Source: a virus. Taken from it: a DNA stretch of 24,022 bases. This document shows positions 916 to 18,550 of this stretch, in pieces. The DNA is taken from positions 1-24,022 of IMG/VR virus record IMGVR_UViG_3300042466_001294. One strand, given 5' to 3'. Position 1 is the stretch's first letter, and each line of letters opens with the position of its first letter. Below the pieces are notes generated by a model. It was not told where the DNA came from, made no database searches, and saw only the letters and a list, made by a program, of their open reading frames with translations. The position numbers were made by a program, and so were the translations under genes.

Positions 916-1326
916 ATGGCTAAAAAAGTTACAAAGAAATCTAGCACTTGGGTTGCTAGAAAGTATGGGTTTAAATCAGGTCTTGAAGAGAATATCTCTG
1001 TACAAATTGAAAGCAAAGGAATAAAAGTAGAATATGAAACCGAAAAGGTGGCTTATACTATACCTGCTTCTCAACATACTTACAATCCTGATTTTAAGTT
1101 ACCAAATGGTATCTTCGTAGAAACAAAAGGTAGATTTGTTGCCGCTGATAGGAAAAAACACTTGTTAGTTAAGGCGCAAAACCCTACACTTGATATTCGT
1201 TTCGTATTCTCCAATTCAAAGAATAAAATCACTAAAACATCAAAAACCACTTATGGGGATTGGTGTGATAAGAACGGATACATATATTCTGACAAAATAA
1301 TACCAGATTCTTGGTTCGAGGAGTAA
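916..1326 (+). CDS. T7-type endonuclease I, Holliday junction resolvase
   Basis: This is a homologue of phage T7 endonuclease I (gp3), a homodimeric PD-(D/E)XK nuclease that resolves four-way junctions and debranches replicating DNA. The similarity is direct and almost colinear. The five active-site residues of T7 (Glu20, Glu35, Asp55, Glu65, Lys67) correspond here to Glu24 in SGLEE, Glu39 in KVEYE, Asp59 in YNPDF, and Glu69 and Lys71 in FVETKG, a constant offset of four. The IPASxHTY and LPNGIFVETKG blocks are conserved, as is the RKKHLLV block and the C-terminal LIPxxW-type ending (IIPDSW). At 136 residues it is slightly shorter than the 149-residue T7 enzyme, lacking the basic tail. It precedes primase and the Mre11-Rad50 fusion, so it likely resolves recombination and replication intermediates before packaging. 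In T4 this role belongs to the unrelated endonuclease VII. Confidence 0.96.
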   Translation: MAKKVTKKSSTWVARKYGFKSGLEENISVQIESKGIKVEYETEKVAYTIPASQHTYNPDFKLPNGIFVETKGRFVAADRKKHLLVKAQNPTLDIRFVFSNSKNKITKTSKTTYGDWCDKNGYIYSDKIIPDSWFEE

Positions 1327-1378: not shown

Positions 1379-2320
1379 GTGTTGAATAGTACTGACAAAT
1401 CCAAAGTTATTACAACGCTTTCTAATGCGTTGGGTAGTTACTCCAATCTAAAGGGTAATGAACTCGCATTCCACTGTCCATTTTGTAATCACCATAAACA
1501 AAAACTCCAAGTCAATACCGAAACTCAAAAGTGGCATTGTTGGACTTGTAATAGTGGTGGTAAGAAATTGACCTCATTATTAAAGAGGTTGGATGTGGAT
1601 AGGAAAACAATCTCAATCATTAGAGAAATATACGGAGATTCTAATTATAATCCCCAAAATGAGGATGCAGATACAAAAGTATACATTTCCTTACCAAAAG
1701 AATTTAAATCGCTTAATGAAGTTCCTAAAGGGTTTAATCCCGAATACAAACATGCTATGTTCTATCTTACACAAAGGGGAATTGGTATGAAGGAAATTAT
1801 CAAATATAATATTGGATATTGTACGGAAGGTTTGTATGCAAAACGAGTTATTATACCATCATATTTATCAGATGGGCAATTAAACTACTTTGTTTCTCGT
1901 TCATATTATCCAGAAGAAAAAATGAAATATAAAAATCCTCCAATCAGTAAAAATGTAATTTGTTTAGAATCGCAGATAAATTGGAACGAACCAATTATAT
2001 TATGTGAGGGAGTATTTGATGCAATTACAATTAGAAGAAACGCAATTCCACTATTGGGTAAGTTTCCATCACGATTATTGGTTGAAAAAATCTTTATGAG
2101 TGGAGTTAGTGATATTATTATCTCATTAGATAGTGATGCAATAAATGAAGCATTAAAAGCAGCAGAATATTTTAGAAAACAGGGAATAAATGTAAAAATG
2201 ATGCATATGAAAGATAAAGATGCATCTGAAATTGGATATGATAAATTTTATGAAGAACTAAAGAAAACTAAAGAGTTTTCATCCAATGAATTATTATTAA
2301 ATAAGATTATGAGTTTATGA
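1379..2320 (+). CDS. DNA primase (zinc-finger plus Toprim)
   Basis: A 313-residue primase that would make RNA primers for lagging-strand synthesis (the gp61 role in T4). An N-terminal zinc ribbon is visible: Cys33-x2-Cys36, then Cys54-x2-Cys57 (CPFC ... CWTC). The C-terminal half carries Toprim motifs: the acidic CEGVFDA with Glu210, and the LDSDA strand with Asp251 and Asp253, which bind the catalytic metals. There is no fused helicase domain, so a separate replicative helicase should lie elsewhere in the genome. The start is GTG at 1379 (TTG at 1382 is the alternative); no in-frame ATG lies before the zinc ribbon, so the start must be near here. It has its own host-like promoter (1343-1374). 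The stop overlaps the next gene as ATGA, which suggests translational coupling to the recombination protein. Confidence 0.88.
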   Translation: MLNSTDKSKVITTLSNALGSYSNLKGNELAFHCPFCNHHKQKLQVNTETQKWHCWTCNSGGKKLTSLLKRLDVDRKTISIIREIYGDSNYNPQNEDADTKVYISLPKEFKSLNEVPKGFNPEYKHAMFYLTQRGIGMKEIIKYNIGYCTEGLYAKRVIIPSYLSDGQLNYFVSRSYYPEEKMKYKNPPISKNVICLESQINWNEPIILCEGVFDAITIRRNAIPLLGKFPSRLLVEKIFMSGVSDIIISLDSDAINEALKAAEYFRKQGINVKMMHMKDKDASEIGYDKFYEELKKTKEFSSNELLLNKIMSL

Positions 2321-5300
2321 GTAGATTAAAAAAGATTTACCACATTGCCGATGTACACATCCGTAATGTAAAAAGACACAATGAGTATAGACAAGTGTTT
2401 GAAAAAATGTTTGATGAGATTCGTAAAAGAGGTACGGAAGATTCAATCATTTATTTAGCAGGGGATATTGCCCATGCTAAATTAGAATTATCTCCTGAAT
2501 TAGTTAGAGAGATAAGTTGGTTATTTACGGAATGTTCTAAATTATGTGAAACAATCCTTATTACAGGTAATCACGATTGTAATATGAACAACTCCGATAG
2601 ATTAGATGTACTTACTCCAATTGTAGAGGCATTAAATCTTCCAAACTTTACATATCTAAGAGATACGCAAGTTTATGGAATTGGTGGAGTTGATTTTGCA
2701 GTATTTAGTATTTTTGATAACAAAGATAATTGGCCTAAAGCAGATACTTTAAGTGGAAACAAAAAGATTGCTTTATTTCACGGACCAGTTGATAATTCTC
2801 AAACGGATATTGGATATGTAGTATCTTCTCGTCATTTTACAACCGATATGTTTGATGGATACGATTTAGCTTTATTAGGTGATATCCACAAACGACAAGA
2901 GATGATTTCTCCAAAAGGATGTAAGGTAGTTTATGCCGGTTCATTGGTTCAACAAAACTTTGGTGAAACTTTGGATAAGCACGGATTCCTTGTTTGGGAT
3001 TTGGATACAATGAGCTATGAAGCAGTTGATATTCATAACGATTATGGGTATTATACTATGGATATTGATAATGGTAAAGTTCCTATCGTATCGGATATGC
3101 CAAACAAACCTCGTCTAAGAGTTCGTTTATCTAATACTGATTCTGCTGATACTAAAAGAGTAATGGCTGAAATTAAAATGAGATATGGTGTTGAGGATTT
3201 CACAGTTATCAGAACCGATTCTCTTTCTAAATCAAAAACAGGTAATAGATTAAACAAATTAGACTTTGAAGATATTTCGGATATTAATTATCAGAACTCA
3301 CTTATAAATGAGTACATTGAGAGAATGATGCCGTTTGTAGCTAAAGAAGATATCGAAAAATTAGAAGGAATTAATAGAGATATAAATAGTAGAATTGTAA
3401 ATGAAGATGTACAAAGAAATATTCAATGGAAACCGATTCGTTTTGAGTTTTCAAATATGTTTAGTTATGGAGAGAATAACAAAATTGATTTCACAAAGTT
3501 AGGTGGGTTAATGGGATTATTTGCACCAAATGCAACAGGTAAATCTTCTCTATTTGATGCTATATCATTTTGTTTATATGATAAGAGTAGTAGAGCTTAT
3601 AAAGCTCAAAATATTCTAAACAATCGTAAATCGGATTTCGTTTGTCACTTACACTTTCAAATCGATGGGTTAGATTATCATATTGAAAGAACTGCAAAAA
3701 CAATTAACAAAGGTAAAAATGTTAAAGTTGATGTACAATTTTGGAGACAAGATGGTGATGATAGGACTTCTTTGAATGGAACGGAGAGAAGGGATACAAA
3801 TCAGATTATCGAACAATATGTTGGTAAGTATGAAGATTTTGTATTAACTGCTTTATCTTTGCAAGGTAATAACGCACTTTTCATAGACAAATCCCAATCA
3901 GAAAGAAAAGATTTGTTAGCACAATTTATGGGATTGAATGTATTCGATAAATTATATGAAACGGCTACTGAAGATATTAAGGAAGTATCTGTCCTAATTA
4001 AGAACTTTAAGAAAACTGATTTCACAACTGAATTAGCTGATAAGGCAACCGAATTAAAAGATAAGAAGGGTGAATTAAAAGAATTTGAAAAAGAATTAGG
4101 TAGATTAAATACTGATTCTACTGATTTAAATAATAGAATTGTTGGATTGAGTGCAGAACTTACTCCAATGGATGGTAATTTAGATTTGGATAGTTTAACT
4201 AAACAAGAAGGAACTATTGGTAGGGATATATTACATATTCTTGCAGAAAAGAAAGCCAAATTAGAATTGATTGAATCTCAAACTAATATTTTAAATGAAT
4301 TATCACAATCAATAGAAGATAAAAAATTATTTAATCAAACTATTGATATAGAAGCGGCATATTCAAATTATCAACGAGAACAAAAAGCATTAACCGAAGC
4401 AACTAAAACTTATGATATTGCAAAGTTGCATGTAAGTTCTGCAGAAGAAACGATTTCACATTTAGATAATCATAAATACGACCCAAATTGTAAGTTTTGT
4501 TGTGATAATACTTTTGTAAAAGATGCAATGAGAGTAAAAGAATTATTACCTCAATTGAAAGAAATACTTAGAGAAGCATTAGTTGATTGTACCGGTATTC
4601 AACAAACATTGGATACGATGGAAGGTGTGGAAGAACAATACAATGTGTGGAATGATTTGAAAGTTAAATATAGTAAAGCAATTGTTATTAAAGAAAAATC
4701 TGAAGCGGAGTTAGAAGGAATGAGTAGTAAAGAACAATTGCTAGAACATCAATTAGAATCGGTTAAAGTTAATATTCAAAAATATCACGATAACGAAGCA
4801 ACTATTAAGAAGAATGCACAAATTAATGAAGTGATATTGGGTCTAAAACGAACCAAAGGTGAGATTGATGATGAAATCAAAAAAGTTACAAAGGATATAG
4901 CAAGTGTGAATGGCTCTATTTCTTCCATATCTTCGTTTATAGAGGGGATAAAAGGTAAGATGAATGATGTTAAGGAGTTGGAAGAAAAGAACCGCCTATA
5001 CACCTATTATTTAGATGCAGTCAAAAGAGATGGTATACCTTATGAGTTAATTTCAAAAGCATTACCGGTAATTGAAAACGAAGTGAATAATATACTTTCA
5101 CAAGTTGTAGATTTTGGAGTTGTAATGGATGTTGATGGTAAATCTATTAATGCAAAAATCGTTTATGATGACCAAGAATGGCCATTAGAAATGTGTAGTG
5201 GTATGGAGAAATTTGTAAGTGGATTGGCTATTAGAGTTGCACTTATAAATGTATGTAACTTACCTCGTCCAAACTTCTTAGTAATCGATGAAGGATTTGG

Positions 5301-5466
5301 TACATTGGATAGTGATAACTTATCATCTCTATTTATGATGATGCAGTATCTTAAAACTCAATTCGATTTCATTTGGGTAATTTCTCACTTAGAACAAATG
5401 AGAGATATCGTAGATGGATTGATAGAAATAAAAAAAGAAAATGGATTTAGTAAGATTGACTTCTAA
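2317..5466 (+). CDS. Fused Mre11-Rad50 (gp47-gp46/SbcDC-like) recombination nuclease-ATPase
   Basis: One 1049-residue chain joins the two subunits that T4 encodes as gp47 and gp46 (SbcD and SbcC in bacteria), the complex that resects DNA ends for recombination-dependent replication. Residues 1 to about 340 are the Mre11-type phosphoesterase: ADVH (Asp12, His14), LAGD (Asp50), TGNHD (Asn85, His86) and GDIH (Asp189, His191). From about 375 the SMC-like ATPase follows: a Walker A-type APNATGKSS with Lys409 (first Gly replaced by Ala), a long Lys/Glu-rich coiled coil, a zinc hook Cys725-Lys-Phe-Cys728, a second coiled coil, the ABC signature CSGME (960-964) and Walker B LVIDEGFGTLD (988-998). All key residues are present, so it should be active. 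There is no stop or frameshift at the junction. It overlaps primase by 4 bases and a convergent minus-strand gene by 20. Confidence 0.95.
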   Translation: MSRLKKIYHIADVHIRNVKRHNEYRQVFEKMFDEIRKRGTEDSIIYLAGDIAHAKLELSPELVREISWLFTECSKLCETILITGNHDCNMNNSDRLDVLTPIVEALNLPNFTYLRDTQVYGIGGVDFAVFSIFDNKDNWPKADTLSGNKKIALFHGPVDNSQTDIGYVVSSRHFTTDMFDGYDLALLGDIHKRQEMISPKGCKVVYAGSLVQQNFGETLDKHGFLVWDLDTMSYEAVDIHNDYGYYTMDIDNGKVPIVSDMPNKPRLRVRLSNTDSADTKRVMAEIKMRYGVEDFTVIRTDSLSKSKTGNRLNKLDFEDISDINYQNSLINEYIERMMPFVAKEDIEKLEGINRDINSRIVNEDVQRNIQWKPIRFEFSNMFSYGENNKIDFTKLGGLMGLFAPNATGKSSLFDAISFCLYDKSSRAYKAQNILNNRKSDFVCHLHFQIDGLDYHIERTAKTINKGKNVKVDVQFWRQDGDDRTSLNGTERRDTNQIIEQYVGKYEDFVLTALSLQGNNALFIDKSQSERKDLLAQFMGLNVFDKLYETATEDIKEVSVLIKNFKKTDFTTELADKATELKDKKGELKEFEKELGRLNTDSTDLNNRIVGLSAELTPMDGNLDLDSLTKQEGTIGRDILHILAEKKAKLELIESQTNILNELSQSIEDKKLFNQTIDIEAAYSNYQREQKALTEATKTYDIAKLHVSSAEETISHLDNHKYDPNCKFCCDNTFVKDAMRVKELLPQLKEILREALVDCTGIQQTLDTMEGVEEQYNVWNDLKVKYSKAIVIKEKSEAELEGMSSKEQLLEHQLESVKVNIQKYHDNEATIKKNAQINEVILGLKRTKGEIDDEIKKVTKDIASVNGSISSISSFIEGIKGKMNDVKELEEKNRLYTYYLDAVKRDGIPYELISKALPVIENEVNNILSQVVDFGVVMDVDGKSINAKIVYDDQEWPLEMCSGMEKFVSGLAIRVALINVCNLPRPNFLVIDEGFGTLDSDNLSSLFMMMQYLKTQFDFIWVISHLEQMRDIVDGLIEIKKENGFSKIDF

Positions 5467-5632
5467 CCTTGTCAGCTTTCAACACACCCGCTTGAGGTTT
5501 AGGAACACCAATGTGTTTCTTAATTAAGTTTTCTACTAAACTTCCCATTTTGAACCCGTGTTCTTCACAATAATTTTTGAGAAGTTCATGGGTTTCTTTT
5601 TTGATTTGTAGCATTGAGTATTTCATAACCAT
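5447..5632 (-). CDS. Small ribbon-helix-helix-like DNA-binding protein
   Basis: A 61-residue protein read from 5632 down to 5447. Residues 7-41 follow the ribbon-helix-helix (CopG/Arc) plan: a short strand MLQIK, a helix KETHELLKNYCEEHG, a turn, and a second helix that begins MGSLVENLIKKH. Such proteins bind DNA as dimers and usually repress transcription. A basic tail follows. The start could be Met1 or Met3; both lie before the strand, and the leader is A-rich. It is the only supported reverse-strand gene here and is convergent with the Mre11-Rad50 gene, overlapping its last 20 bases. It is divergent from the tail-fibre gene, with 105 bases between them, so it could regulate that junction. 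The amino-acid pattern is coherent, which argues against a chance frame, but the call rests on a short motif. Confidence 0.7.
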   Translation of the reverse strand: MVMKYSMLQIKKETHELLKNYCEEHGFKMGSLVENLIKKHIGVPKPQAGVLKADKVRSQSY

Positions 5633-5676
5633 TTTAGTTTTCTTTAGTTTAATAAAGTATTTGTTAGTTTTCTAAA

Positions 5677-5725
5677 TATAAATATGTAGAGTTTATTTTT
5701 TTAGAAATATTTATAGGAAACAATA
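5677..5725 (+). promoter_or_regulatory. Divergent control region with two TATA-type boxes
   Basis: The 105-base gap between the minus-strand gene and the tail fibre holds two AT-box elements. TATAAATA at 5677-5684 equals the T4 late promoter consensus on the plus strand. TATTTATAGGAAACAATA at 5708-5725 matches 16 of 18 bases of 581-598, and its first eight bases read TATAAATA on the minus strand. Either box could drive the fibre gene at 5738, and the second could serve the minus-strand gene. In such AT-rich DNA eight-base AT boxes also arise by chance (similar ones occur inside genes near 14566 and 16455), so the longer repeat is the stronger evidence. Confidence 0.4.
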
Positions 5726-5737
5726 CAAACTTTATAA

Positions 5738-8700
5738 ATGGCTTTACTTAAAAAAACTCTATTTGATGAAAAATTAGAGACATACAATGTATTAGTTGAA
5801 GATACTGCGCCTTTTAGTAATTATTTTAAGATAACTGAATTATCAGATGTATTTACAGGTGGTAAAAACGCTTTCTTAATTCAAGGTTCTCCTGAATTAG
5901 TTGCCGATAGTCTTATTAAAATACAAATAAAAGATTCTCAAGGTAATACAATATATAACGAGCCCGGTGAAGGTATACCCGAATACTATGAAGGTACATC
6001 TAAGGTTGTAGCTGTTTATATTTACCCCGATACTTCATTCGGTCCATGTACTATAACAATTTTAGGAGAATTAAAAGAATATTATTCTAACAATGGTGTA
6101 TTAAATCCTGTACCTGGAAATTGGGAGGGTACTTATAATGTTAGATGGCAAAAACAAATAAATGTAAATCCATTATTACAAAATACTTCTAAAATTCGTT
6201 TCTATCGTAGACCTAAAGTTGCTATTGAAGAAACAATTTTACCAATTTATAATAGAAGTGTAAATAGAAAAACAATAAGTGGTAGCGTCGATGGTGTATC
6301 TATTAATCCATTAGCTGGAGCTAATTTTAAAACATTTAAGGGCGATACTTTGTATGAATTAAGAATTAGTGGAAGTAGTTTTTCATCATCTATGGAAGGT
6401 GAAACTATTACTATTACTAATTTAAATCAATCGTATTCTACAACTATTAAAGATGTAATAACTTCGAATAAAGCAAATGCTACTATTCCATATTATGAAA
6501 CATCATCGGTAACTTCTCCACAAATTATAAAAAATTTCAGTTCCGCTTCTTTTTCATTAGCATATAATGAAAGTGTAACTCTTACAAATTCATCTGTTAG
6601 TTCATCATTTGCTAAGATTAAATTAACTGACTTAGAAGCATTTAGTGGTGATGTAAATCGTTTAAGAATATATGCAAGTAGAAAAGCTGATATTGGAAAT
6701 TATACTTTATTAGAAGATATTCAATTAGAATCTAATGAATTATTACAAACTGATGAATATAGTGGTAGTGTAAACATAAGAACGGGTGTTTTTAGTTCGC
6801 AAAATATAGTAAATGAATTTTGGGTATATAAAGATTACGATTCATCAACAAACTATACTGCTACATTAAATAATACCGATTTAGTTTCATCTGTGAAATT
6901 ATTAGATGATGGTATTCAAAATACATCGGATTATCCACAAAGAATATTTTATTATTCATCATCGCTTGATTTATTAAAGAATACAGAATACCAATTAGAT
7001 TTTACACCAATACTATCATCATCTTTATATGGAAATAATATAATAGAAATATATGGTAGTGGTTCTGCTTTTGTTAATTTAGGTAGTAATATTGGATTGG
7101 GGAAAAACATAGGTAAATTGGTTACCAATTCTCAATTTATAAGATATGATAAACAACAAGTTAATTTTAAAACAGATGCTGATGGTACGGGTACTATTGT
7201 ATTTGCTGTTTATCAGGGAAATTGGCAACTATCAAATATAAGTTTAAGAGCAACTCAAGAAACAAATTTTTCTCCAAATGAGATAACTTTAAATGTAGCA
7301 GTTCCTACAAAAGTTAAAAATGATACTTTTGATTTTAAATTTGAATTTTACGATATAAATAACAATTATGTTCCTGTAAGTTTAAATCAAGAGTTTACAT
7401 TTACAGGCGGAAATGATTTAGTTGTTAGAAAAAGTATAACAGTAACTCCGGATGGAAACTTATTTAGTTTTTCAGGTTCAGGAGAATCAATAGGAGTATC
7501 TTCTATTAATTTTGATATTACTAAAGTTGGATTAACTGGTTCAACTATATTTTATTCATCGGCATTTGATGAAAATGGAGATTACATACAGCCAGCAGTT
7601 TATGGTTCACAACCTTTTTATCCAGGTTTATTAACAAATGTAACATCAGGTTCTGCTACACTAACGGTATCTAATTTTACAGGCTCATTAACTACTCCAA
7701 AAGTTACAAGAATATTGTATACCGCATCATGCGAAGATGTACAAGATTTAATAAACATTTATAGAGTAGACCAAGGTGCAAATGGACAAGATGGAAGAGA
7801 TGGTTCGGATGGTGCAACTTTTATACTAGTAGCTAATAAAAACCAATTTGTATACGACCCTGATAATCATTTTGAGCCCGCACAATCAAATGATTTTATT
7901 GATATTAAACTATCATCAAATATAGTAAGTGGTTCTTTAACAATTACTTCTGGTTCATTTTTACCAAAATTACAAAAATTAAGCACAACTCAGGTTGGAT
8001 TTTATACTGAATCTGTTTATAGAATTTATAGTGGGAACGATGAAGAAGATGTTGCTATGCTTGGTACAAATGCGGCATCTTGGTCTTACTATACGCCTAC
8101 AAATCTTCTACATAAAGGAACTTATTTATTCAGTCAAAATGGATTTAGTTCATCCGTACAATTAGAAGGTATTTTAAAAGGAGATAAAAGTAAAAACTTA
8201 AATGCAACTTCAAACGCTAATCAGTTTTTTTATAAAATGACTGATGTTAGTTTATCTCCTTCTGGACAAAGTATTACGATAGATGTAAAAAGAAATAATT
8301 TAGGAAGTACTACAAATGCAATTACAGTAACAAGTGGTAGTGGTAAACCTGTATTGACTGTAGGTTCTAATAACGGAACAACCGGAGTACAATCATATAG
8401 TATTGATGGTAGCAATTATCCTTATTCGGCTGGAGCAACTACATATACATTTTTTGCAGAAGATTTAAACTTTGATGGGTATACTGATACTATAACAATT
8501 ACACCTGTAATAGCTGAATCACAAATAGCTGTAAATGTATCAAATGAAAATACAACATTTCCTGCCTATTCCGGAGGAAATGTATTTGGTGGATTTTTAG
8601 CAAGTAGTGGTTCTATTTCGGTAAAAGTGGGTAGTGAAGATATCGCATATGCATCTACGATTGCAAACAATAGATTTAGTGCAAGTATATCATCTTCTAC

Positions 8701-11700
8701 AAATGTAACCGGAGTATTAACAAATAACAATTATTCAATTACCGCATTATCAGCTGATAGTGGTAGTTTGAATTTGAAAGTAACATATAGAGATGGTAGA
8801 GGTAGTGATAGTACATTTACAAAATTAGTAACTTATTCGAAAGCAAAGGCTGGTGCACCTAATGTATTAGTAGCTGTATCCCCTTCGGCACAATCAATTG
8901 CTGCAAATTCAAGAACAAGTGGTTCAGCCACCCCAGCTTCAGTAACTGTAACTGCATTAGAAGCTGGTACAAGCAGATTTACATCAATAGGAACTCCTGT
9001 TTACACCAATGGATTAGCAGGTGATGTTTCATCTAATACAATAACATTTACATCCACCGCATCATCCATAGCAGGTTCTACTGCACAGGTAACAATACCT
9101 GTAAACTATACGGATAGTGAGGGAGTTACGGGAACAAAAAATGTTGTAGCTACTGTTTCCAAAGCATTAGCATCCGCACCATCGACTATTGTTTCTATTG
9201 AAAAAGATGGACAAACTATTACGAGAAGTAAAACTGGAACATATGGTACTCCATCTTCATTCAGAATAAATGTTTTAGAAGGGGCAAACTCATCATCTTA
9301 TGATAATACTGAGCCATTTGCGTCGTCCACTTTTAGAATTACAAATGTAACAAATGGTACATTAAACGCTACCGATTTAGATAAATATGCAACAATAACA
9401 CCATCTACACCATCATCCACTTCGGGATTAGTTGTAAGTATTACGGGGTCATATGTAGATTCTGAAGGAAGTACTACTACATTTTTAAAAACACATAATG
9501 TAAATGTTGCAACCGATGGAAGTGATGGTGCTACGGGTGCATCTGGACCTGGTATTGTTTTTAGAGGTCCTTGGAGTTCTACAATAACTTATTTTGATAC
9601 CGATGATTCCCCTGGCCGTAGAGATGCGGTATTATATAGTGGAACTTATTATGCAACAAAAACAAATGCAACCACAAACTTAAATAAACAACCAAATATT
9701 GAAACTACATTTTGGGAATCATTGGGAACTGATAGTTTCTTTGTAGCAGCTAAAATTATCATATCTGAAAATTCATTTGTACAAGAAACTTTAAATGTAG
9801 GTACAAATTCTTCCGGTAATGCAAATATAACATTAAGAGGTGGTACTGATAAACCATATATTTCAATAGCACAAGCAGTACAAGAATTTGGTACAAATGG
9901 AATTTATTTAGGTATAACCGGTTCAGTTGGCAATGCAGTTGTTAGTTTCCAAAGTGGTAGTAATTATTTCAAATATAATTCATCTGCAGCTGGTACTATT
10001 ACTGACCCCGTAATTAGTGTTGGTGGAAATATAGCAGCAACTTATATAACAGCAACTTCGGGAGCAATTGGTGGTTTTACAATTGGAAGTAATACAATGA
10101 CTGCCGGTAATTTATTATTAGATGCAGGTAATAATAGAATTTTAATTGGTAGTAATAATAATTTAGTTGCAATGAGTCCAACTGATGGATTTTATGCCGG
10201 AAGCGCGACTCCTACATTGGCTAATTTTAGAGTAAAAACTGATGGTATTATGACCGCAGTTGGAGCTAGTATAACAGGTACAATCACCGCCACCGGTGGT
10301 AACATTGGAGGTTGGGAAATTGGAGATGGTAGAATATTTAAAAGTAAAATTGAATTAAAAGCTACTTCTACGCAAGAATATATAAATGTCCAAGGTTCAA
10401 CCGAAGCTGGTTCAGCGGGTAACTATGTTAGAATTACACCAGATAGTTTGTCTAGTTTAACATTATCGGGAGCAGGAGATGGGGTCGCATCTACTGCCGC
10501 AGGTACTTCATTTACTAATTTAGGTACGGGTACTACATTAACCACATATTATGTTGGTAATAGTGGAGCAAGTACAACTTTAAGTACAGATGCTGGAAGT
10601 GTTAGTAATAGTACTAATAATGGAGCCGCTTATACTGGCACTGTATCTGTAAGATATAAATTAGCAGCTACATTTTCAGCTCAAAAACCTATTATGGGTG
10701 AAGGGAGTATTTTTGATAGGCCGACATTCCCATCTGCCCAAGCCGCGTATCAGGCATCTCAAGATAATCTAATTGGAATTAGTCCAACTATAAATGGAGC
10801 TAAACTACAATGGAATCAAGCGGTAAATGGAGTATTAGGGTATAATGATTCCGAATATTTCGTATTGAATGCAGTGGAGGGTACTCAAGTGACTGTTGCG
10901 ATAGTATATGGAGATTATAACGGTACAGAAACAATTTCATCTACTTTATATTATAATAATACAGCAATTGGTACTAATACTAAAACTTTAACTCTTACAG
11001 GAGCAAACACTGAAGTAAGTGAAATTGTTAGTATGGCGGGTTCATTTACTCAAGTAAATGGTGCAGACTTTAAAGTTACTTCAACAAGAACAAATGGAGG
11101 TTTTAATATATATAGGATAGCTATAACATGGGAATTAGGAAAATGGTTCGAACCTGATTTTAATAAACCATTTTATAGTTGGTTTCCAGCAGAAGATACG
11201 GGTGGATTTGAATTTGCATCTGAAACAACAGCATATGTAGCACCTACTGCATTAGCTGCAGGTTCATTGAGTAGATTCTTAGAAATTACACCATCTGGAT
11301 TACAAGCTGTATTTAATTCCGCAAAAAATTACTTTAGAGTGGATTATGTTGGTGGAAACGACCCATCTACTTCAAATTTTAATATAAATTCAGCAGGATA
11401 TTGGAAACATACTGGAGAAATGCATTCAACTGGTGATATCATAGGCTTTACAACCGCAGGTGCATCAGATGAAAGATTAAAAGATACTATTGAAAATATA
11501 ACTGAAGAGGATTATTTGAAATTGAAAGAATTAGTTCCTGTAACTTATTCTTGGAAAAGTGATAATGAAAAAGAAAAACATTATGGCTTAATAGCTCAGC
11601 AAGTCGATAAGGTATTTCCAGAATTAACTCGTAAGAAATTATTTGGAGAATATATGACGATTAATTATATTGGATTAATACCTATATTAGTTGGTATGAT

Positions 11701-11758
11701 ACAAAAGCAAAATAGTAGAATATCAGAATTAGAAAGAAGATTAAATAGTTCCAAATAA
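5738..11758 (+). CDS. Giant tail fibre with C-terminal S74 chaperone
   Basis: A 2006-residue fibre, likely trimeric and receptor-binding. The N-terminal ~160 residues look like a virion-attachment domain. The rest is Ser/Thr/Gly-rich beta structure with recognisable islands. Collagen-like Gly-X-Y runs lie at 680-692 and 1261-1271. Tandem Ig-like repeats (~107 residues) sit around 1034-1255. A module at 1277-1328 (GPW ... YSGTYYATK ... FWESLG) resembles CBM5/12-type carbohydrate-binding domains. Two GAIGGFTIG/GNIGGWEIG repeats lie at about 1442 and 1521. The end is a peptidase S74 intramolecular chaperone: the SDERLK motif at 1910-1915 supplies the Ser/Lys pair, with predicted self-cleavage before Ser1910, and GLIAQQV and a terminal helix follow. 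The ATG at 5738 follows an A/T-rich leader. The stop overlaps the next start (TAATG), so expression is coupled. Confidence 0.88.
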   Translation: MALLKKTLFDEKLETYNVLVEDTAPFSNYFKITELSDVFTGGKNAFLIQGSPELVADSLIKIQIKDSQGNTIYNEPGEGIPEYYEGTSKVVAVYIYPDTSFGPCTITILGELKEYYSNNGVLNPVPGNWEGTYNVRWQKQINVNPLLQNTSKIRFYRRPKVAIEETILPIYNRSVNRKTISGSVDGVSINPLAGANFKTFKGDTLYELRISGSSFSSSMEGETITITNLNQSYSTTIKDVITSNKANATIPYYETSSVTSPQIIKNFSSASFSLAYNESVTLTNSSVSSSFAKIKLTDLEAFSGDVNRLRIYASRKADIGNYTLLEDIQLESNELLQTDEYSGSVNIRTGVFSSQNIVNEFWVYKDYDSSTNYTATLNNTDLVSSVKLLDDGIQNTSDYPQRIFYYSSSLDLLKNTEYQLDFTPILSSSLYGNNIIEIYGSGSAFVNLGSNIGLGKNIGKLVTNSQFIRYDKQQVNFKTDADGTGTIVFAVYQGNWQLSNISLRATQETNFSPNEITLNVAVPTKVKNDTFDFKFEFYDINNNYVPVSLNQEFTFTGGNDLVVRKSITVTPDGNLFSFSGSGESIGVSSINFDITKVGLTGSTIFYSSAFDENGDYIQPAVYGSQPFYPGLLTNVTSGSATLTVSNFTGSLTTPKVTRILYTASCEDVQDLINIYRVDQGANGQDGRDGSDGATFILVANKNQFVYDPDNHFEPAQSNDFIDIKLSSNIVSGSLTITSGSFLPKLQKLSTTQVGFYTESVYRIYSGNDEEDVAMLGTNAASWSYYTPTNLLHKGTYLFSQNGFSSSVQLEGILKGDKSKNLNATSNANQFFYKMTDVSLSPSGQSITIDVKRNNLGSTTNAITVTSGSGKPVLTVGSNNGTTGVQSYSIDGSNYPYSAGATTYTFFAEDLNFDGYTDTITITPVIAESQIAVNVSNENTTFPAYSGGNVFGGFLASSGSISVKVGSEDIAYASTIANNRFSASISSSTNVTGVLTNNNYSITALSADSGSLNLKVTYRDGRGSDSTFTKLVTYSKAKAGAPNVLVAVSPSAQSIAANSRTSGSATPASVTVTALEAGTSRFTSIGTPVYTNGLAGDVSSNTITFTSTASSIAGSTAQVTIPVNYTDSEGVTGTKNVVATVSKALASAPSTIVSIEKDGQTITRSKTGTYGTPSSFRINVLEGANSSSYDNTEPFASSTFRITNVTNGTLNATDLDKYATITPSTPSSTSGLVVSITGSYVDSEGSTTTFLKTHNVNVATDGSDGATGASGPGIVFRGPWSSTITYFDTDDSPGRRDAVLYSGTYYATKTNATTNLNKQPNIETTFWESLGTDSFFVAAKIIISENSFVQETLNVGTNSSGNANITLRGGTDKPYISIAQAVQEFGTNGIYLGITGSVGNAVVSFQSGSNYFKYNSSAAGTITDPVISVGGNIAATYITATSGAIGGFTIGSNTMTAGNLLLDAGNNRILIGSNNNLVAMSPTDGFYAGSATPTLANFRVKTDGIMTAVGASITGTITATGGNIGGWEIGDGRIFKSKIELKATSTQEYINVQGSTEAGSAGNYVRITPDSLSSLTLSGAGDGVASTAAGTSFTNLGTGTTLTTYYVGNSGASTTLSTDAGSVSNSTNNGAAYTGTVSVRYKLAATFSAQKPIMGEGSIFDRPTFPSAQAAYQASQDNLIGISPTINGAKLQWNQAVNGVLGYNDSEYFVLNAVEGTQVTVAIVYGDYNGTETISSTLYYNNTAIGTNTKTLTLTGANTEVSEIVSMAGSFTQVNGADFKVTSTRTNGGFNIYRIAITWELGKWFEPDFNKPFYSWFPAEDTGGFEFASETTAYVAPTALAAGSLSRFLEITPSGLQAVFNSAKNYFRVDYVGGNDPSTSNFNINSAGYWKHTGEMHSTGDIIGFTTAGASDERLKDTIENITEEDYLKLKELVPVTYSWKSDNEKEKHYGLIAQQVDKVFPELTRKKLFGEYMTINYIGLIPILVGMIQKQNSRISELERRLNSSK
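8837..9520 (+). repeat. Tandem ~107-residue Ig-like repeats in tail fibre
   Basis: At the protein level SKAKAGAPNVLV (from residue 1034) recurs as SKALASAPSTIV (from 1141), exactly 107 residues later. Each is followed by a QSI/QTI strand, and each unit is preceded or closed by Y-x-D-x-x-G strands: YRDGRG near 1020, YTDSEG near 1128 and YVDSEG near 1241. The third copy ends by running into the collagen-like segment at 1261. Sequence divergence between copies shows these are old modules and not a recent duplication. Confidence 0.65.
11465..11755 (+). other. S74 self-cleaving chaperone domain (residues 1910-2006)
   Basis: These 97 codons encode the predicted released C-terminal domain of the tail fibre. 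By analogy with phage endosialidase fibres, the domain guides trimer folding and then cuts itself off before the Ser of the SD-x-RLK motif (Ser1910, with Lys1915 as partner). The GLIAQQVDKVFPEL motif typical of the family is present and the domain ends in a long charged helix. Cleavage itself is inferred. Confidence 0.85.
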
Positions 11759-14700
11759 TGGCTTCAAACATTAAATTAAAAAATTTAGCCAGAAGTGCAG
11801 GTAAAACAGTTGATGCAAGTGGAAATCCAATAGCAGCAGCTTCCGGTTCTGATATGGCTAATATTTTTTTAACAGGCGATGTAAATCAAACTGTTTATAG
11901 ACATGTTCCTGATACCATTGGTTCTATTAGTGGAACAAGCCCAAGACCAATTGGAGACCAATATCAATTTTACGAATTCGATGGTGTGGTTCCTGGCATT
12001 GCTTTTACATCAATAAGTACTATATCAGATAATACCAATGTAAATATAGGTAGACAGATAACTTTTACATTTACTACAACTGGGGTGATATCTACAAATT
12101 ATAATGTTAAATTATATGGATATGATGCTAATCAACAAAATGAAGTTCTTTTAGACACTTATGGTGGGTATGGTGACAATGTAACAAATGAATCAAAAAC
12201 ATTTACGGGAACATTATTTCCAAATCAAATAAATTTCTTTAAATTATTATTAACAACCACAAGCGGACCTACTAGATTTGGAGAAGATATTACATCAATT
12301 TATATCTATCCAATAGATTTAACAATATCATCGGTAGTAACATCGCCAATATTTACAGGCGCAGGTACTCACAACTACACAACAGGTTCAGTTGGATTTA
12401 CTGTTAATGTTAATGGCGGAGTTCCTCCATATTATTATAATTTTAATGGAGCAGGATTTGGAGTTGCCGATGCAAATACTGCTACTTTTAATAATTCTAC
12501 AACTACTACGGATGATGCATATGATATTGTAGTTAAAGATTCACATACACCAACATTTGATACAGCTACAACTAGAGCAACAACATTCAGACCTCCAATT
12601 AGAGTTTCTTCTATTTCTACAAATTCTTCACCAGAACCATATGTTGATTATACAATAACACCAACTATTGCAAATAATACGGATGGCCTTCCATTAGTGT
12701 ATGCATGGGCTTTAGATGGTACTACACCTTCTACGAGTACCACATCGGCTCCTACTGTATTTTATACATCGTTAGGTGCAAAAACACACAGAGTTGATAT
12801 AACTAATTCTACGAATAGTAGTATACGACATAATAATACTACGGCAGTTACCGTAGCTATGATAGCACCTGGATTTACATCCGTTGAATATACTCCAAGT
12901 AGTGAAACTTTTTCTATATCATTAAATGTATCATCATTAGGAACTGCTAGAAGTGGTACTACAAGAAAGTTTGATATAGAATATAGAGTAAAAGATAGTG
13001 GAGGTACTTATGGTAGTTGGACATCTATAACATCAGATAGTACATCAACATCTACTTCTGTATCTATTAGTGGAAAAACAAATACTACACAAGTTGTACA
13101 AGCTAAAGCTAGAACACGAAGAACTAATGGTATAACTGAATTTATTTCTTCCTATGCTGAATCAACTGAAGTAACTATTCCACAAAAGGGAATAGTAAAT
13201 ATGAATAACCAAACCAGTTTATTAACAGGTGGAGATAGAAGTTTTGATGGTAGTGTTACAATTGGTGGAGTGGCTGATACGGGGTATAATACACCAACAA
13301 TAACAGCAGTTACTACGGATGGTACTGTTACCGCTAGTATTAGTAAACCATCTTCTAATATCGTTAGAGTAGTTGTTAATAATCCATGTACAAGTGTAAA
13401 TGATGGAACTGCTAGCCATGTTATATCTTTAAAAGATGGTAATGGTTATAATCTAACTAAATCTTTTACAACTCAATATAAGATAAATACTACATCAATA
13501 AATTTAACTACTACTTGGGGAAATGAAAGATATTATAATGGAGCCGCAAATGCAATCGCAAATAGCTTAGCACAATACTCATTTACATTAAATTCATTTG
13601 CTTATAAAGTTGGAGCTGGTTCATATAGTACACTAAATAGTGGAAATATGTCAAGTAGTTATTCACATACTTATACTGCACCCACTTCAGACCAGACTTG
13701 GACTTATAGAATTGTTGCTAGTGGGGGAACATATACGACATCGGATACAGCAGAAACTTCTTTGACCGTATATGGATATCCTGGACAATCTTATGGTTAT
13801 TCGGTTGCAGGTGTTCCATCATCTGGTACATTATCTCAAGTGGGTAGTGTTGTAGCAAGAGTAAGTAGAAGTAGTGGTAATTTCGCAAAAATATCAGTAG
13901 ATAGTTATTATGTAACTAGACCTACGGGAACAAATGTATCACCTGCTGGTAAATCGGAAGCAAGTATCACCGATTCAGCAACTAGCTTTGATTCAGCTAC
14001 ATTTTCATTATACGATTCGGCAGAATGTGGTAATAATGTAACGGGTATAGCAACTTTAATGGCTTATTTAAAATATGAAATCGATGCATCGAGATATTAT
14101 TTACATCAACTAATATCTTCAGGTGTATCTGTTTTAAATGAACCACCAAGCCTAACCTCTACATTAATTAGTGGTATTACAAGTGATTATGCAATTAGAG
14201 GAAATATTATAACACACGAGATTTCATATTCTTCATATGGTCCTCCAATAGCAGGTTATTACGATTTTAATGGTACATTTTATGATAATTCTGCGTACGC
14301 ATATCTTTCTCAAAATACAAATCCATCGAGTTTTTCAGGTATAACAGTCAATGATGAAAATTCACCAGAGTCACCTTCAATTGGATATTACCGAATAGCT
14401 ACCGATGGGACATTTTGTAGAAAGACTAGAAATTTATCATTTGAATACACACCAACTTCAGGCCAGGTAGGTACTAATATAACATTAAATTATTATGCGA
14501 GAGAATACCAAATAGATGAAATAGAAATTGATGAAGGTGATGGAAGAGGTGGAAGTCTTTTTACTTATTTATATGATTATTATTTTGATGGAAGTGAAGC
14601 AACTTTAACTTCTACAAAAACATATAGCGTTAGAGGAAGAAGATTAGGTACTAGTGGTAATTCTTGGAGTATTACAATTTATGTAAACAAAGGATATAGT

Positions 14701-16680
14701 GATTTACAATTTGGATTGGGTAGTGGTACATTAACAGGACCAGATGGAGCTATTGATTATTACAATGGAAATTTAGATGCTTTAACATATGTTTATCAAA
14801 GATATAATGGAAGTAGTTGGGTAGATATCGCTGGTTCATCTTACGATCCAGGTACATTCGGAACTACTTTAGTTAGAGTTAAATTTACAGATACATGGGG
14901 TAATACATTTGAATCAGCTCAGCAAAGTGCAACTACTTCGGATTTAGATTATACATTTAATGTAACTAATGAAGGCGGCCAGCCTACTGTATATGCTTAT
15001 GTTGGTTCTGGTCAATCTAGTGCACCTGTTATATTAACTCCAGGATTTACCAATAACAGAGCCATATGGTCAACTGGAACAAATATCAGTATTGATAATA
15101 TGACTGTAAATGATTATGTTATAGTATATGAACATAATGTATCAGGTATGGATGAGAGAGGAACATATTCTAATTTTCCAGGTGCATATACTACCATAGG
15201 TGTATCTGTTACAGCAGGTAGTACTCCCACATATGGAATGTTTAGAACATTTACTTATACACTTAGTACTAATCAACAAGTAATAGCAACTAGAGATTAT
15301 AGTGGAAGTCCTTATGCAAACGCAACTGGCACAGATATATTAGGTATTAAATCATTTCAAATGTTTAATTCTGGAGATAGTTCAGGAAACGCTACTTTAT
15401 TTGGTACAGGTGGTATTAGTGGTAACTTTAGATTGATGGCATTACTAAGAGCACCATCAGTATATGATGCAACTGCTACATATACATTACATGGACAAAA
15501 AGCTTCAAACAATACACAGCAAGGTACAGACTATTATGTAGTGTTAAAGACAAGGGGTGTTCAAAATGTTGTTAATATATTAACTCAAACGGGTTTGTGT
15601 GGAGGAATATATGTTGAATATAGAACAGGCCAGCTTGATACTGCCACTACTTTAGAAATACAAGAAAGTACGGATAATTCAACATTTACTAATAATGCTG
15701 TATATTCAAGCATCGCATCTAATACTACATATAATGCATTTATAACCGTAACAGGTAATGCTATACGCTATTATAGAGCAAGATTGTTAAATAGTAGTGG
15801 TGGTGTAATATCTACTGGAACAACTTATTCATACACAAACTATGCAGCTGGAGCAGCTGGAAATTATAGTTTTTTAAATATACCAGGAGTTTGTACTTCG
15901 TTTACATATAGAGTCGATAGACCTTCTGGTGGTAATTCTAATAATAATGCATATTTTGCTATTTCGTGGGCAACTGCTGATGAATATGGAACTGTTGGTG
16001 CAGAAATCACATCAGCTACTGGCAAAGCATATAATACGAATCATGTACAAAGTCTTTCTGGATTCCCATGCGATACACCAATACAAGTTACTATAACACC
16101 ATATTCTGCAACAGGATGCGATGGAACATCTGATACTAGTTTTGAAACTTCACATAAATCAGATGCGATAAATGAATTTTGTGGATGTGCGGGTGGTGGC
16201 GGATGTTTGGTATATGGTACTAAAGTTTTAATGTATGATGGTTCTTTAAAAAATGTTGAAGATTTGATTATAGGAGATATTGTTAAAAGTATAGCAATAA
16301 GTGGATTAAATCCTAATATAGAATTAAATTGGATAGATTGGTTAACAAATGATTTTCAATATGAAGATGGTTTATCAATAATAATGAGTATTGATGATAA
16401 TTCATTCTCTCAATATTATGTATTTAATAATTTATTGAAGGCAACATATGAGCATCCTATATTTATAAAAAGAGATAATGTGTGTATGTTTCAAATGGCT
16501 GAAAATTTGGTAATAGGTGATTATTTTTTTAATTCTAATAATGAATTTGAAATTATTTCATCAATTGATATAATAGATGAACCAATTCAAACAATTAATA
16601 TTAATATTGAAGAAAATGATGTCTACTTTGCAGATGGAATTTTAGTACATAACGCAGCACGACCAAAAGACGAAGCTTAA
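11758..16680 (+). CDS. Giant beta-rich adhesin with C-terminal Hint domain
   Basis: A 1640-residue virion adhesin candidate directly downstream of the tail fibre, overlapping its stop by one base. It has no signal peptide. The bulk is a Ser/Thr/Tyr/Asn-rich chain that looks like many small beta-sandwich (Ig, PKD or fibronectin-III-like) domains, for example around residues 370-480 with WxSITS and QAKARTR strands. Cys is rare until the last 170 residues, where a Gly/Cys segment (CGCAGGGG) leads into a Hint domain from Cys1483 to Asn1632. Only eight residues follow that Asn. The arrangement implies self-cleavage that trims the adhesin or attaches it to something. The next genes encode a Hint-like relative and a glycosyltransferase, which fits a maturation module. 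Tail or fibre location is inferred from the neighbourhood; receptor specificity cannot be read from the sequence. Confidence 0.8.
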   Translation: MASNIKLKNLARSAGKTVDASGNPIAAASGSDMANIFLTGDVNQTVYRHVPDTIGSISGTSPRPIGDQYQFYEFDGVVPGIAFTSISTISDNTNVNIGRQITFTFTTTGVISTNYNVKLYGYDANQQNEVLLDTYGGYGDNVTNESKTFTGTLFPNQINFFKLLLTTTSGPTRFGEDITSIYIYPIDLTISSVVTSPIFTGAGTHNYTTGSVGFTVNVNGGVPPYYYNFNGAGFGVADANTATFNNSTTTTDDAYDIVVKDSHTPTFDTATTRATTFRPPIRVSSISTNSSPEPYVDYTITPTIANNTDGLPLVYAWALDGTTPSTSTTSAPTVFYTSLGAKTHRVDITNSTNSSIRHNNTTAVTVAMIAPGFTSVEYTPSSETFSISLNVSSLGTARSGTTRKFDIEYRVKDSGGTYGSWTSITSDSTSTSTSVSISGKTNTTQVVQAKARTRRTNGITEFISSYAESTEVTIPQKGIVNMNNQTSLLTGGDRSFDGSVTIGGVADTGYNTPTITAVTTDGTVTASISKPSSNIVRVVVNNPCTSVNDGTASHVISLKDGNGYNLTKSFTTQYKINTTSINLTTTWGNERYYNGAANAIANSLAQYSFTLNSFAYKVGAGSYSTLNSGNMSSSYSHTYTAPTSDQTWTYRIVASGGTYTTSDTAETSLTVYGYPGQSYGYSVAGVPSSGTLSQVGSVVARVSRSSGNFAKISVDSYYVTRPTGTNVSPAGKSEASITDSATSFDSATFSLYDSAECGNNVTGIATLMAYLKYEIDASRYYLHQLISSGVSVLNEPPSLTSTLISGITSDYAIRGNIITHEISYSSYGPPIAGYYDFNGTFYDNSAYAYLSQNTNPSSFSGITVNDENSPESPSIGYYRIATDGTFCRKTRNLSFEYTPTSGQVGTNITLNYYAREYQIDEIEIDEGDGRGGSLFTYLYDYYFDGSEATLTSTKTYSVRGRRLGTSGNSWSITIYVNKGYSDLQFGLGSGTLTGPDGAIDYYNGNLDALTYVYQRYNGSSWVDIAGSSYDPGTFGTTLVRVKFTDTWGNTFESAQQSATTSDLDYTFNVTNEGGQPTVYAYVGSGQSSAPVILTPGFTNNRAIWSTGTNISIDNMTVNDYVIVYEHNVSGMDERGTYSNFPGAYTTIGVSVTAGSTPTYGMFRTFTYTLSTNQQVIATRDYSGSPYANATGTDILGIKSFQMFNSGDSSGNATLFGTGGISGNFRLMALLRAPSVYDATATYTLHGQKASNNTQQGTDYYVVLKTRGVQNVVNILTQTGLCGGIYVEYRTGQLDTATTLEIQESTDNSTFTNNAVYSSIASNTTYNAFITVTGNAIRYYRARLLNSSGGVISTGTTYSYTNYAAGAAGNYSFLNIPGVCTSFTYRVDRPSGGNSNNNAYFAISWATADEYGTVGAEITSATGKAYNTNHVQSLSGFPCDTPIQVTITPYSATGCDGTSDTSFETSHKSDAINEFCGCAGGGGCLVYGTKVLMYDGSLKNVEDLIIGDIVKSIAISGLNPNIELNWIDWLTNDFQYEDGLSIIMSIDDNSFSQYYVFNNLLKATYEHPIFIKRDNVCMFQMAENLVIGDYFFNSNNEFEIISSIDIIDEPIQTININIEENDVYFADGILVHNAARPKDEA
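16204..16653 (+). other. Hint (bacterial intein-like) autoprocessing domain
   Basis: Residues 1483-1632 of the adhesin carry the intein/Hedgehog motifs in order. Block A is CLVYGTKVLMYDGS with Cys1483, followed by VEDLIIGDIV. Block B is TYEH with Thr1563 and His1566. The C-terminal block is VYFADGILVHN with His1631 and Asn1632. The 150-residue length leaves no room for a homing endonuclease. The residue after Asn1632 is Ala, not Cys, Ser or Thr, so normal protein splicing is not expected and cleavage is, as in bacterial intein-like (BIL) domains. Confidence 0.85.
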
Positions 16681-17140: not shown

Positions 17141-18550
17141 ATGGTACATAAATTGGGAATATGCATTCCATATAGGGATAGAGAAACTCATTTAAAAACT
17201 CTAATTCCACATCTTACAAAGTTTCTTAATAAAAAAGATATTAAGCATTCTTTTTATATAGCACATCAAATTGATGATAAGTTATTTAATAGAGGGGCAA
17301 TGAAAAATATTGCCGCTAAACATGCATTTGAAGATGGGTGTGATTATGTAGCATTTCACGATGTAGATATGTTACCTGAAAATGAAAATTGTGATTATTC
17401 ATATCCTATCGATTATCCAACCCATATTGCAACAAAACTTTCTAAATACAAATACAAATTGAATTATGAGCAGTACTTTGGTGGGGTTGTATTATTTACA
17501 AAAGAGCAAGTAGAAAAAACCAATGGTTACTCAAATGATTATTGGGATTGGGGTATGGAAGATGATGATTTGTTTTGGAGATGTGTATATGAAGATATGA
17601 CAAATTGTGTAATATTTTCAAAATATACAAATAAAAAATATTTTGCTTTTAATGGGGATGGTTCATATATCCATATAAGGAAAGAATTGGGGTTACATTC
17701 GATTTTATCTAATTCTCACACTATTTCTATATTATGTAGTATAGATAATCAACCGGATAAATATAATCATTGGTTGGTAGGGGATGAAGCAAAATCATTT
17801 ATAGAATATCCTATTTTTAGAAGTAATAACAAAAATGGTTATGGAATTGGATTTAACAATTCTAGAGCAATATGTTCTTCTATTAGAAATTCCAATAATA
17901 ACTTTAATTATGGATGGATTAAGCGAAACTTTAATGAGTGGACTTGGGTAACCATATCAGTTGATACCAATTCTAATAATATATATTTTTATTGTAATAA
18001 CAAACTTATAAAAAATACAACCAATGGTACATTAGAAGAAAGTTATTCTAATTATGAAGGTACATTACAAAAAATAGATTCTGACTTTTATATAGGTAAA
18101 AATTCAGATAATATTACTGATATGATTGCTCCTTTTCTAAAAGGCAAAGTTGCAGAAATTAAAGTGTGGAATAAATTTTTTAAAAAAGAAGAAATTGAAG
18201 ATATTATATTAAAAAATAAAGAAACTCCATATTTTGAATTAACAAATGATAATAAAAAATTACATTACAACAATATAGTGGAAGAAAGTGCAACATTTGA
18301 TGTAATTAATAATATAATACCACATCGAAGAGAAGGGAGATTTCTCTCATTACCCCATACCGATGAAGGGTTTGTTGGTGGTAAATGGGCAAAAGGAGAA
18401 ACTACTGCACGAAATGAAAAAAGATTTTTCTTAGAAATGAAAGCAAAAAAACTAAATTACAAAGATGATGGTATAGCTCAAATTAAGTATGATTTGGTAT
18501 CAAAAGAGCAAATAGCAGACAATGCTTGGATGATAAATATAAAACTTTAA
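17141..18550 (+). CDS. GT7 beta-1,4-galactosyltransferase-like enzyme with inserted LamG domain
   Basis: A 469-residue glycosyltransferase of the beta-4-galactosyltransferase family (GT7, GT-A fold). The catalytic signatures are clear: CIPYRDRETHL (8-18) for nucleotide-sugar binding, FNRGAMKN (49-56), the metal-binding HDVDMLP (73-79), and YFGGVVLFTKEQV (112-124) followed by NGYSNDYWDWGMEDDDLFWR (128-147), which closely parallels the acceptor-site WGWGGEDDD loop of animal enzymes. Residues ~188-360 are different: a LamG/concanavalin-like sandwich with WTWVTISVD, IYFYCNNKLI, YIGK and FLKGKVAEIKVWN. The GT7 C-terminal part then resumes (RNEKRFFLEM, then DDGIAQIKYDLVS). The enzyme is cytoplasmic (no signal peptide). 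Its place beside the adhesins suggests it decorates a virion fibre or a host surface sugar. UDP-galactose as donor is a family-based guess. Confidence 0.87.
   Translation: MVHKLGICIPYRDRETHLKTLIPHLTKFLNKKDIKHSFYIAHQIDDKLFNRGAMKNIAAKHAFEDGCDYVAFHDVDMLPENENCDYSYPIDYPTHIATKLSKYKYKLNYEQYFGGVVLFTKEQVEKTNGYSNDYWDWGMEDDDLFWRCVYEDMTNCVIFSKYTNKKYFAFNGDGSYIHIRKELGLHSILSNSHTISILCSIDNQPDKYNHWLVGDEAKSFIEYPIFRSNNKNGYGIGFNNSRAICSSIRNSNNNFNYGWIKRNFNEWTWVTISVDTNSNNIYFYCNNKLIKNTTNGTLEESYSNYEGTLQKIDSDFYIGKNSDNITDMIAPFLKGKVAEIKVWNKFFKKEEIEDIILKNKETPYFELTNDNKKLHYNNIVEESATFDVINNIIPHRREGRFLSLPHTDEGFVGGKWAKGETTARNEKRFFLEMKAKKLNYKDDGIAQIKYDLVSKEQIADNAWMINIKL
17702..18220 (+). other. LamG/concanavalin-like domain inserted in GT7 fold
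   Basis: Residues ~188-360 of the glycosyltransferase. The strand pattern W-x-W-V-x-I-x-V-D, then I-Y-F-Y-x-x-N-K, then Y-I-G, then F-x-G-K-V-x-E-I-K-V-W-N and a terminal KKEEIEDI helix is typical of LamG-like sandwiches, which often bind glycans. GT7 motifs occur on both sides, so this is an insertion and not a terminal fusion. The boundaries are approximate. Confidence 0.75.

Follow-up and report, generated by a model that had tools for sequence, protein, structure and literature searches.

Phage T4 (gp47/gp46) and Escherichia coli (sbcD/sbcC) keep the Mre11 nuclease and the Rad50 ATPase in two genes, as the sequence-only reading of the DNA analysed here rightly stated, and a viral gene that seems to join them raises the question of whether the joint is genuine and what the product would do. 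The gene lies at 2317..5466 (+) of the window, by which we mean the whole stretch of 24,022 nt from IMG/VR virus record IMGVR_UViG_3300042466_001294. It is a single open frame of 1049 aa plus a stop codon, and we call its product, about 119 kDa by our estimate, the fusion protein. Our answer is that the fusion is genuine, conserved and of a kind in print since 2011, and that its product is very probably a nuclease of the Mimivirus R555 type, a single-chain Mre11-Rad50 (SbcD-SbcC) that is the phage equivalent of T4 gp46/gp47.

That both enzymes share one uninterrupted frame of 1049 residues is borne out by the open reading frame (ORF) itself, by profile matches and by the motifs. Pfam places Metallophos at residues 6-192 (E 1.2e-9) and AAA_23 at residues 379-594 (E 2.2e-8) and also matches SMC_N (E 4.5e-13), all beyond their cut-offs, and PHROGs recognizes an SbcD-like family at 5-348 (E 1.1e-34) and an SbcC-like family at 276-1048 (E 1.3e-55). 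The Mre11-like phosphoesterase with its capping domain (residues 1-318, 2317..3270 (+)) carries DVH at 12-14, GD at 49-50, GNHD at 84-87, H155, and motif V as GDIHKRQ at 188-194 (2878..2898 (+)), where Asp replaces the usual His. The Rad50 N-terminal ATPase lobe, assigned from Pfam, motifs and fold (residues 370-560, 3424..3996 (+)), holds the Walker A motif APNATGKS at 403-410 (3523-3546); the zinc hook CKFC follows at 725-728 (4489..4500 (+)), with C728 in 54 of 54 aligned sequences and C725 in 53; and the C-terminal ATPase lobe (residues 886-1049, 4972..5463 (+)) has the signature SGME at 961-964, a Walker B motif ending in IDE at 990-992, and H1024 as the His switch. The Rad50 set of Walker A, zinc hook, SG(G/M)E signature and Walker B is complete. 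The NCBIfam SbcC, SbcD and Rad50 models also match, every one under its curated cut-off (sbcc 110.1 bits, cut-off 478.5; sbcd 28.7, cut-off 77.65), and by these profile scores the fusion protein is homologous to, yet outside, the canonical cellular SbcC/SbcD subfamilies.

An AlphaFold2 model made with 54 sequences (mean predicted local distance difference test, pLDDT, 82.7) arranges these parts along the chain. Nuclease and capping domain extend to about residue 300, a weak stretch follows at 302-316 (pLDDT <50), and then come two helices, 323-337 and 343-357, which form a helix-loop-helix (HLH; 3283..3387 (+)) in a block, 321-360, with pLDDT 85-89. From its position, and by analogy with what passages of Yoshida, Claverie and Ogata (Virol J 2011, PMC3175470) say of R555, the HLH is a probable Rad50-binding domain. 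A linker of 12 residues (358-369, 3388..3423 (+)) leads to the Rad50 N lobe from residue 370, and the coiled coil around the zinc hook and the C lobe complete the model. VIA-align superposes model residues 4-299, the Mre11 half, on the nuclease and capping domain of Staphylococcus aureus SbcD (7dog_A; Z 25.0, 275 residues, root-mean-square deviation (rmsd) 3.3), and the Rad50 half on E. coli SbcC (7yzo_D; Z 32.0, 348 residues, rmsd 3.0).

A single-chain Mre11-Rad50 is not new. The consulted passages of the 2011 paper describe the fusion in R555 and twelve further proteins, among them one of Bacillus phage 0305phi8-36, place fusions also in plasmids and eukaryotes, and discuss the HLH and a linker of 9-12 residues (PMC3175470). 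They report R555 homologues as abundant in aquatic metagenomes, argue that these are viral and that some are probably phages, and confirm the fusion in metagenomes for a few long scaffolds only. The fusion protein shares the architecture described there: N-terminal Mre11 with capping domain, HLH, a linker within about 9-12 residues in the AlphaFold2 model, and C-terminal Rad50, all in one chain. It also shares the substitution by which Asp242 of R555 takes the place of His206 of Pyrococcus furiosus Mre11 (PMC3175470), here at residue 189. Unlike R555, which has 1351 aa and a longer coiled coil, it has 1049 aa and belongs to a tailed phage. SbcC and SbcD are described as near-universal in a review of jumbo phages (PMC7824862), whose consulted passages do not mention the fusion; no later paper devoted to phage Mre11-Rad50 fusions was found among the literature matches listed and the abstract starts they give, which include a 2019 paper on Mimivirus that names R555 a single time (PMC6466248).

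Whether the joint is peculiar to one contig was answered by a survey of 253 loci. It comprises the best 80 of 596 confirmed relatives from an IMG/VR scan with the fusion protein as query, 78, 20 and 73 loci from further scans with three distant relatives (five loci being on two lists), two contigs of metagenome-assembled genomes from a genome-collection scan, which may be misplaced phage sequence, and the named records L082-L086; one gene is counted twice (L191 = L219), and two loci are parts of one contig (L250 and L270). A tblastn match was usable in 252, the sole miss being Tenacibaculum phage PTm1 (L086), where the annotation shows a single gene. The ORF is complete, with at least 950 aa, in 214 of the 252, continues without a stop to an edge of the fetched stretch in 35, and is interrupted in three: L083 and L202 have the break around residue 195-200, and L254 has it around residue 452 of the L087 query, near a contig end. 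The sequence-only reading had pointed to residues 340-375 as the place where a missed stop or frameshift would betray a false junction, and none of the 252 loci is broken there. The search it proposed, for single-chain Mre11-Rad50 in phages, returned many, both IMG/VR relatives and named phages. No split close relative was seen among the surveyed loci, which are best matches to fusion queries, so that split ones could be under-represented. Without the named records there are 211 complete ORFs, representing 182 distinct proteins. Seven plasmid records match, none over 80% of the query, and megablast of the window against phage records gave no match.

The survey also settles the Ala that opens the Walker A motif, which had been noted as a deviation: it is the norm of the clade (207 of 211 complete ORFs, 179 of 182 distinct proteins), and we rejected the motif as an anomaly. 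The PROSITE P-loop pattern is [AG]xxxxGK[ST]; E. coli SbcC has GPTGAGKT.

Selection on the linker resembles that on the nuclease part. Pooled over 172 non-independent pairs of 71 coding sequences (84-98.5% protein identity; counting method, Jukes-Cantor-corrected), the ratio of nonsynonymous to synonymous substitution rates (dN/dS) is 0.074 for nuclease and capping domain, 0.074 for the HLH, 0.078 for the linker (358-372) and 0.092 for the junction at 340-375; the ATPase lobes give 0.059 and 0.031 and the coiled coil 0.25. The distance from Q326 to N380 is 52-55 residues in all 54 aligned sequences, which reach down to 25% identity to the fusion protein, and N353 (53 of 54), N368 (50 of 54) and W371 (51 of 54) are nearly invariant. 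Given this near-fixed length and the purifying selection, the junction is translated and constrained and, as far as sequence tells, no loose tether. The near-fixed length fits the earlier claim that fusion constrains how the nuclease sits on the ATPase heads; the 1:1 stoichiometry claimed with it follows by definition. Across 1431 non-independent pairs, the distances of the Mre11 and Rad50 halves correlate with r = 0.92.

What such an enzyme might do is suggested by the genes around it. Directly upstream lies a DnaG-like primase (1379..2320 (+); PHROG DNA primase, E 2.5e-46), whose stop codon the fusion ATG overlaps, preceded by a T7 gp3-like endonuclease I (916..1326 (+); Pfam Phage_endo_I, E 6.4e-57), presumably of the Holliday-junction resolvase type. 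The order in the window is endonuclease I, primase, fusion, and phage primases and T7-gp3-like endonucleases are likewise described, in the consulted part of PMC3175470, on the Global Ocean Sampling scaffolds of R555 homologues. Of the 225 loci that include 1200 or more bases upstream of the fusion, 215 have a primase match there, and of the 205 that include 2000 or more, 131 have an endonuclease I match. The 11 longest contigs of the IMG/VR scan (63-245 kb) all have an endonuclease I; together with Microcystis phage Mel-JY01, which has none, and the 484-kb phage LR756508, with two weak matches far from its fusion, this makes 12 of 13 records. In each of the 11 contigs a single SbcD-like match and a single strong SbcC-like match coincide with the fusion. 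Some of the SbcD-like ones start before its initiation codon and therefore cross stops, and 5 contigs have a second, weak SbcC-like match (E 1.9e-5 to 7.6e-5). The fusion is thus the only such enzyme seen in these contigs. A RecA match is present in 6 of the 13 records: the four of the 11 contigs that are >130 kb, Mel-JY01 and LR756508.

T4 gp47/gp46 and E. coli SbcD/SbcC are the same two enzymes and, by analogy, would do the same job; they differ in having two genes, where the fusion is one ORF, in a motif V of GHxH, and in standing outside the fused group in both trees described below. For gp46/gp47 a role in resection is described (PMC3016280, in the part consulted). By analogy, the likely task of the fusion protein is to resect DNA ends for recombination and replication that depend on RecA, and breakdown of host DNA is perhaps a further one. 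In the mechanism that we propose, two chains would pair through ATP-dependent contacts of the Rad50 heads and through the zinc hooks, and the HLH would dock on the coiled-coil base, so that each ATPase head would have one nuclease pre-positioned on it by the linker. Cutting under the control of ATP would then resect DNA ends to 3' single strands for the phage RecA, and the neighbouring endonuclease I would resolve the resulting branches. Fusion would guarantee 1:1 assembly and transfer as one unit, with no need for cleavage of the chain.

Several observations weigh against this assignment. The whole model, a single chain, has a predicted template modelling (pTM) score of 0.45, and linker block 361-370, at pLDDT 61, is less confident than its flanks. 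A RecA match is absent from 7 of the 13 records, all of them contigs <110 kb that may be fragments. Motif V has Asp instead of the canonical metal-ligand His, and the His of motif I is replaced by Gln in 5 of 54 aligned relatives, so that nuclease activity could be altered.

The alternative that fares best builds on these substitutions: a nuclease-modified variant in which the motif V Asp alters the second metal site, leaving a protein whose main work is to tether DNA or whose cutting specificity is changed. In its favour, all 211 complete clade ORFs, and all 182 distinct proteins among them, read GDxH and not GHxH at motif V, and R555 has the same replacement, as noted above; among the tree rows, 25 of 26 fused ones have Asp and 13 of 14 split ones have His. 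The link between Asp and fusion is not strict, however, since PAU is fused with GHIH and T5 D12 is split with GDLH, and GDxH is no strict mark of fusion. D50, N85, H86, H155 and H191 are invariant in all 54 aligned sequences, and Asp can also bind metal, so loss of activity is not expected; we consider this alternative improbable. The sequence-only statement that all Mre11 motifs are present thus holds for their positions in the frame and fails for the identity of motif V: metal ligands stand at every phosphoesterase motif position if Asp is accepted for the His, and the strict GHxH is not found. As a separate observation, DIQ stands for DxH at motif I, together with Asp at motif V, in L088, L106, L112, L114 and L117.

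It is distinctly less probable that the full-length product is only a precursor, cleaved within the linker in the infected cell to leave the usual two-part complex as the working enzyme. The lower model confidence of the linker block would suit a cleavage site, but the linker is under constraint similar to that on the nuclease domain (dN/dS 0.078 and 0.074), its length is almost fixed, and its near-invariant residues include N368, with N353 and W371 close by. Nothing in this indirect, sequence-based evidence points to proteolytic separation. Nor does a separate Rad50 seem to be made from a start of its own. In-frame ATGs lie at codons 337, 338, 381 and 399; Met337 is found in 15 of 54 rows and Met338 in 13 of 54, so neither is conserved, and Met381 (53 of 54 rows) and 399 are both inside the Rad50 head. 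We rejected all of these as internal starts.

Slightly less likely again is a role in defence or counter-defence as an SMC-type protein, such as one like LmuB of Lamassu, in place of a role in replication or recombination. The PADLOC LmuB model matches residues 380-1016 (E 1.5e-29) and Lamassu structures appear at Foldseek ranks 9, 11 and 27, but Foldseek ranks 1-3 are Mre11-Rad50 and SbcC chains, chains of the same types top the VIA-align rows, and the chain carries an Mre11 domain. PADLOC found no Lamassu partner among 7 neighbours (three giant ORFs were outside its scan), and its sole neighbour match was the primase, to a reverse-transcriptase-associated DnaG-like model (E 3e-5). Primase and endonuclease I as neighbours likewise favour the single-chain Mre11-Rad50 nuclease.

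A sequencing or assembly artefact joining two adjacent genes can practically be dismissed: one-base joins of this kind do occur, as between Listeria phages LMTA-57 (one gene) and LP-048 (two genes), but 249 of 252 loci, with identities as low as about 25-45%, have no break in the fetched stretch, the fusion is annotated as a single gene in Mel-JY01, PTm1, PAU, pT24 and MA9V-1, and dN/dS across the linker is 0.078. We rejected LMTA-57, with its one gene of 1009 aa, as a fusion, the split LP-048 span being one base longer; it is still among the 214 complete ORFs.

Do these fusions have one origin or many? We built separate trees of the Rad50 lobes and of the Mre11 part (362 columns each) from 40 sequences, 26 fused, 10 split from phages and 4 split from bacteria (L286 and L290 are outside the trees). 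In both, all 26 fused rows lie on one side of a branch, apart from the 14 split rows, with support of 100/99 (Rad50) and 98/98 (Mre11). The grouping is kept in the Mre11 tree without the last 55 fused residues at 85% filled columns (99/94), and in a quick tree without four long branches (SH-aLRT 97.6). The root is set by the four bacterial rows only, and several split rows are long branches; in the Rad50 tree the bacterial rows are not one group, Chlorohelix sitting on a long branch beside phage rows. The grouping was absent (2 changes) from a Rad50 tree that had three bacterial rows fewer and in which E. coli SbcC had been trimmed at the wrong place (41% of columns filled, a long branch). The simplest reading of these trees is that the sampled phage fusions have a single origin, unlike the recurrent fusion inferred in the consulted part of the 2011 paper (PMC3175470); as R555 and the eukaryotic and plasmid fusions are outside the trees, that claim is not refuted in general.

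In a viral fold search with the whole chain, the first nine rows have 16-25% identity, R555 itself being outside the comparison, and rows 1-5, 8 and 9 are proteins of giant viruses. A bolder proposal, which we hold tentatively and somewhat below even odds, is that single-chain Mre11-Rad50 arose once and early in viruses instead of by recurrent fusion, as an ancient lineage with the His-to-Asp metal site and the in-chain HLH-linker that would be common to aquatic tailed phages, jumbo phages of Bacteroidetes and Sphingomonas, and giant viruses.

Named phages show how far the form extends. WWT39521.1 of Mel-JY01, annotated as 'AAA domain containing protein', is a full-length single chain with 42.1% identity to the fusion protein, close behind a primase-like gene; upstream of the primase there is a GIY-YIG gene where the window has endonuclease I, and the genome has no endonuclease I match. 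Mel-JY01 is not mentioned in the literature searched. Tenacibaculum phages PTm1 and pT24, Sphingomonas phage PAU and Chryseobacterium phage MA9V-1 have one gene of ~1300 aa each, variously annotated, which groups with the fusion protein in both half-trees; these are longer and distant, PTm1 matching at 22.7% identity over 41% of the fusion protein. The 735-kb phage LR756501 has a longer single-chain form too.

In LR756508 (L083) the fusion gene is interrupted by ~1 kb after motif V. The insert (LR756508.1, ~5580-6640) directly follows GDIHKRQ and holds a 305-aa ORF that matches a Tn7 TnsA-like endonuclease (Pfam PF08722, E 5.8e-6); it resembles a mobile intron or homing element. Rfam gave no match at the gathering score in L083 or the window, and around the insert just a weak snoRNA match (E 0.37). 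A distant relative, L202, has a short frame-breaking insert (~3880-4000) at the equivalent site after GDIHKMQ, which may be chance, an error, or a remnant of the same kind of element.

What this analysis adds is modest: confirmation of whole genes at scale, the constraint on the linker, the Asp across the clade and the single group formed by the sampled phage fusions. The 2011 inference from metagenomes, that aquatic phages have R555-like fusions, now has behind it complete genes, seen together with the genes beside them on long phage contigs. For biochemistry, a compact single-chain Mre11-Rad50 offers fixed stoichiometry and a way to follow ATPase-nuclease coupling without subunit exchange, and the conserved metal-site Asp poses a simple testable question.

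The rest of the window has several large genes. The tRNA scan found none. The protein of 1438 aa at 18637-22953 has an N-terminal cytidylyltransferase (PHROG 395, E 1.3e-16), a region that may be a metallopeptidase (a weak DUF6782 match, and HEMAH seen by eye) and, in its C-terminal third, a KTDG ligase-like motif seen by eye. At 11758-16680, a protein of 1640 aa ends in a Hint-like domain (PT-HINT, E 3.4e-5, under the Pfam cut-off), and 17141-18550 joins a galactosyltransferase (GT7) domain and a concanavalin-like lectin domain in one phage protein. The tail fibre of 2006 aa at 5738-11758 has a C-terminal S74 intramolecular chaperone. On the opposite strand, an Arc-like repressor (5447-5632 (-)) overlaps the final 20 bases of the fusion gene.

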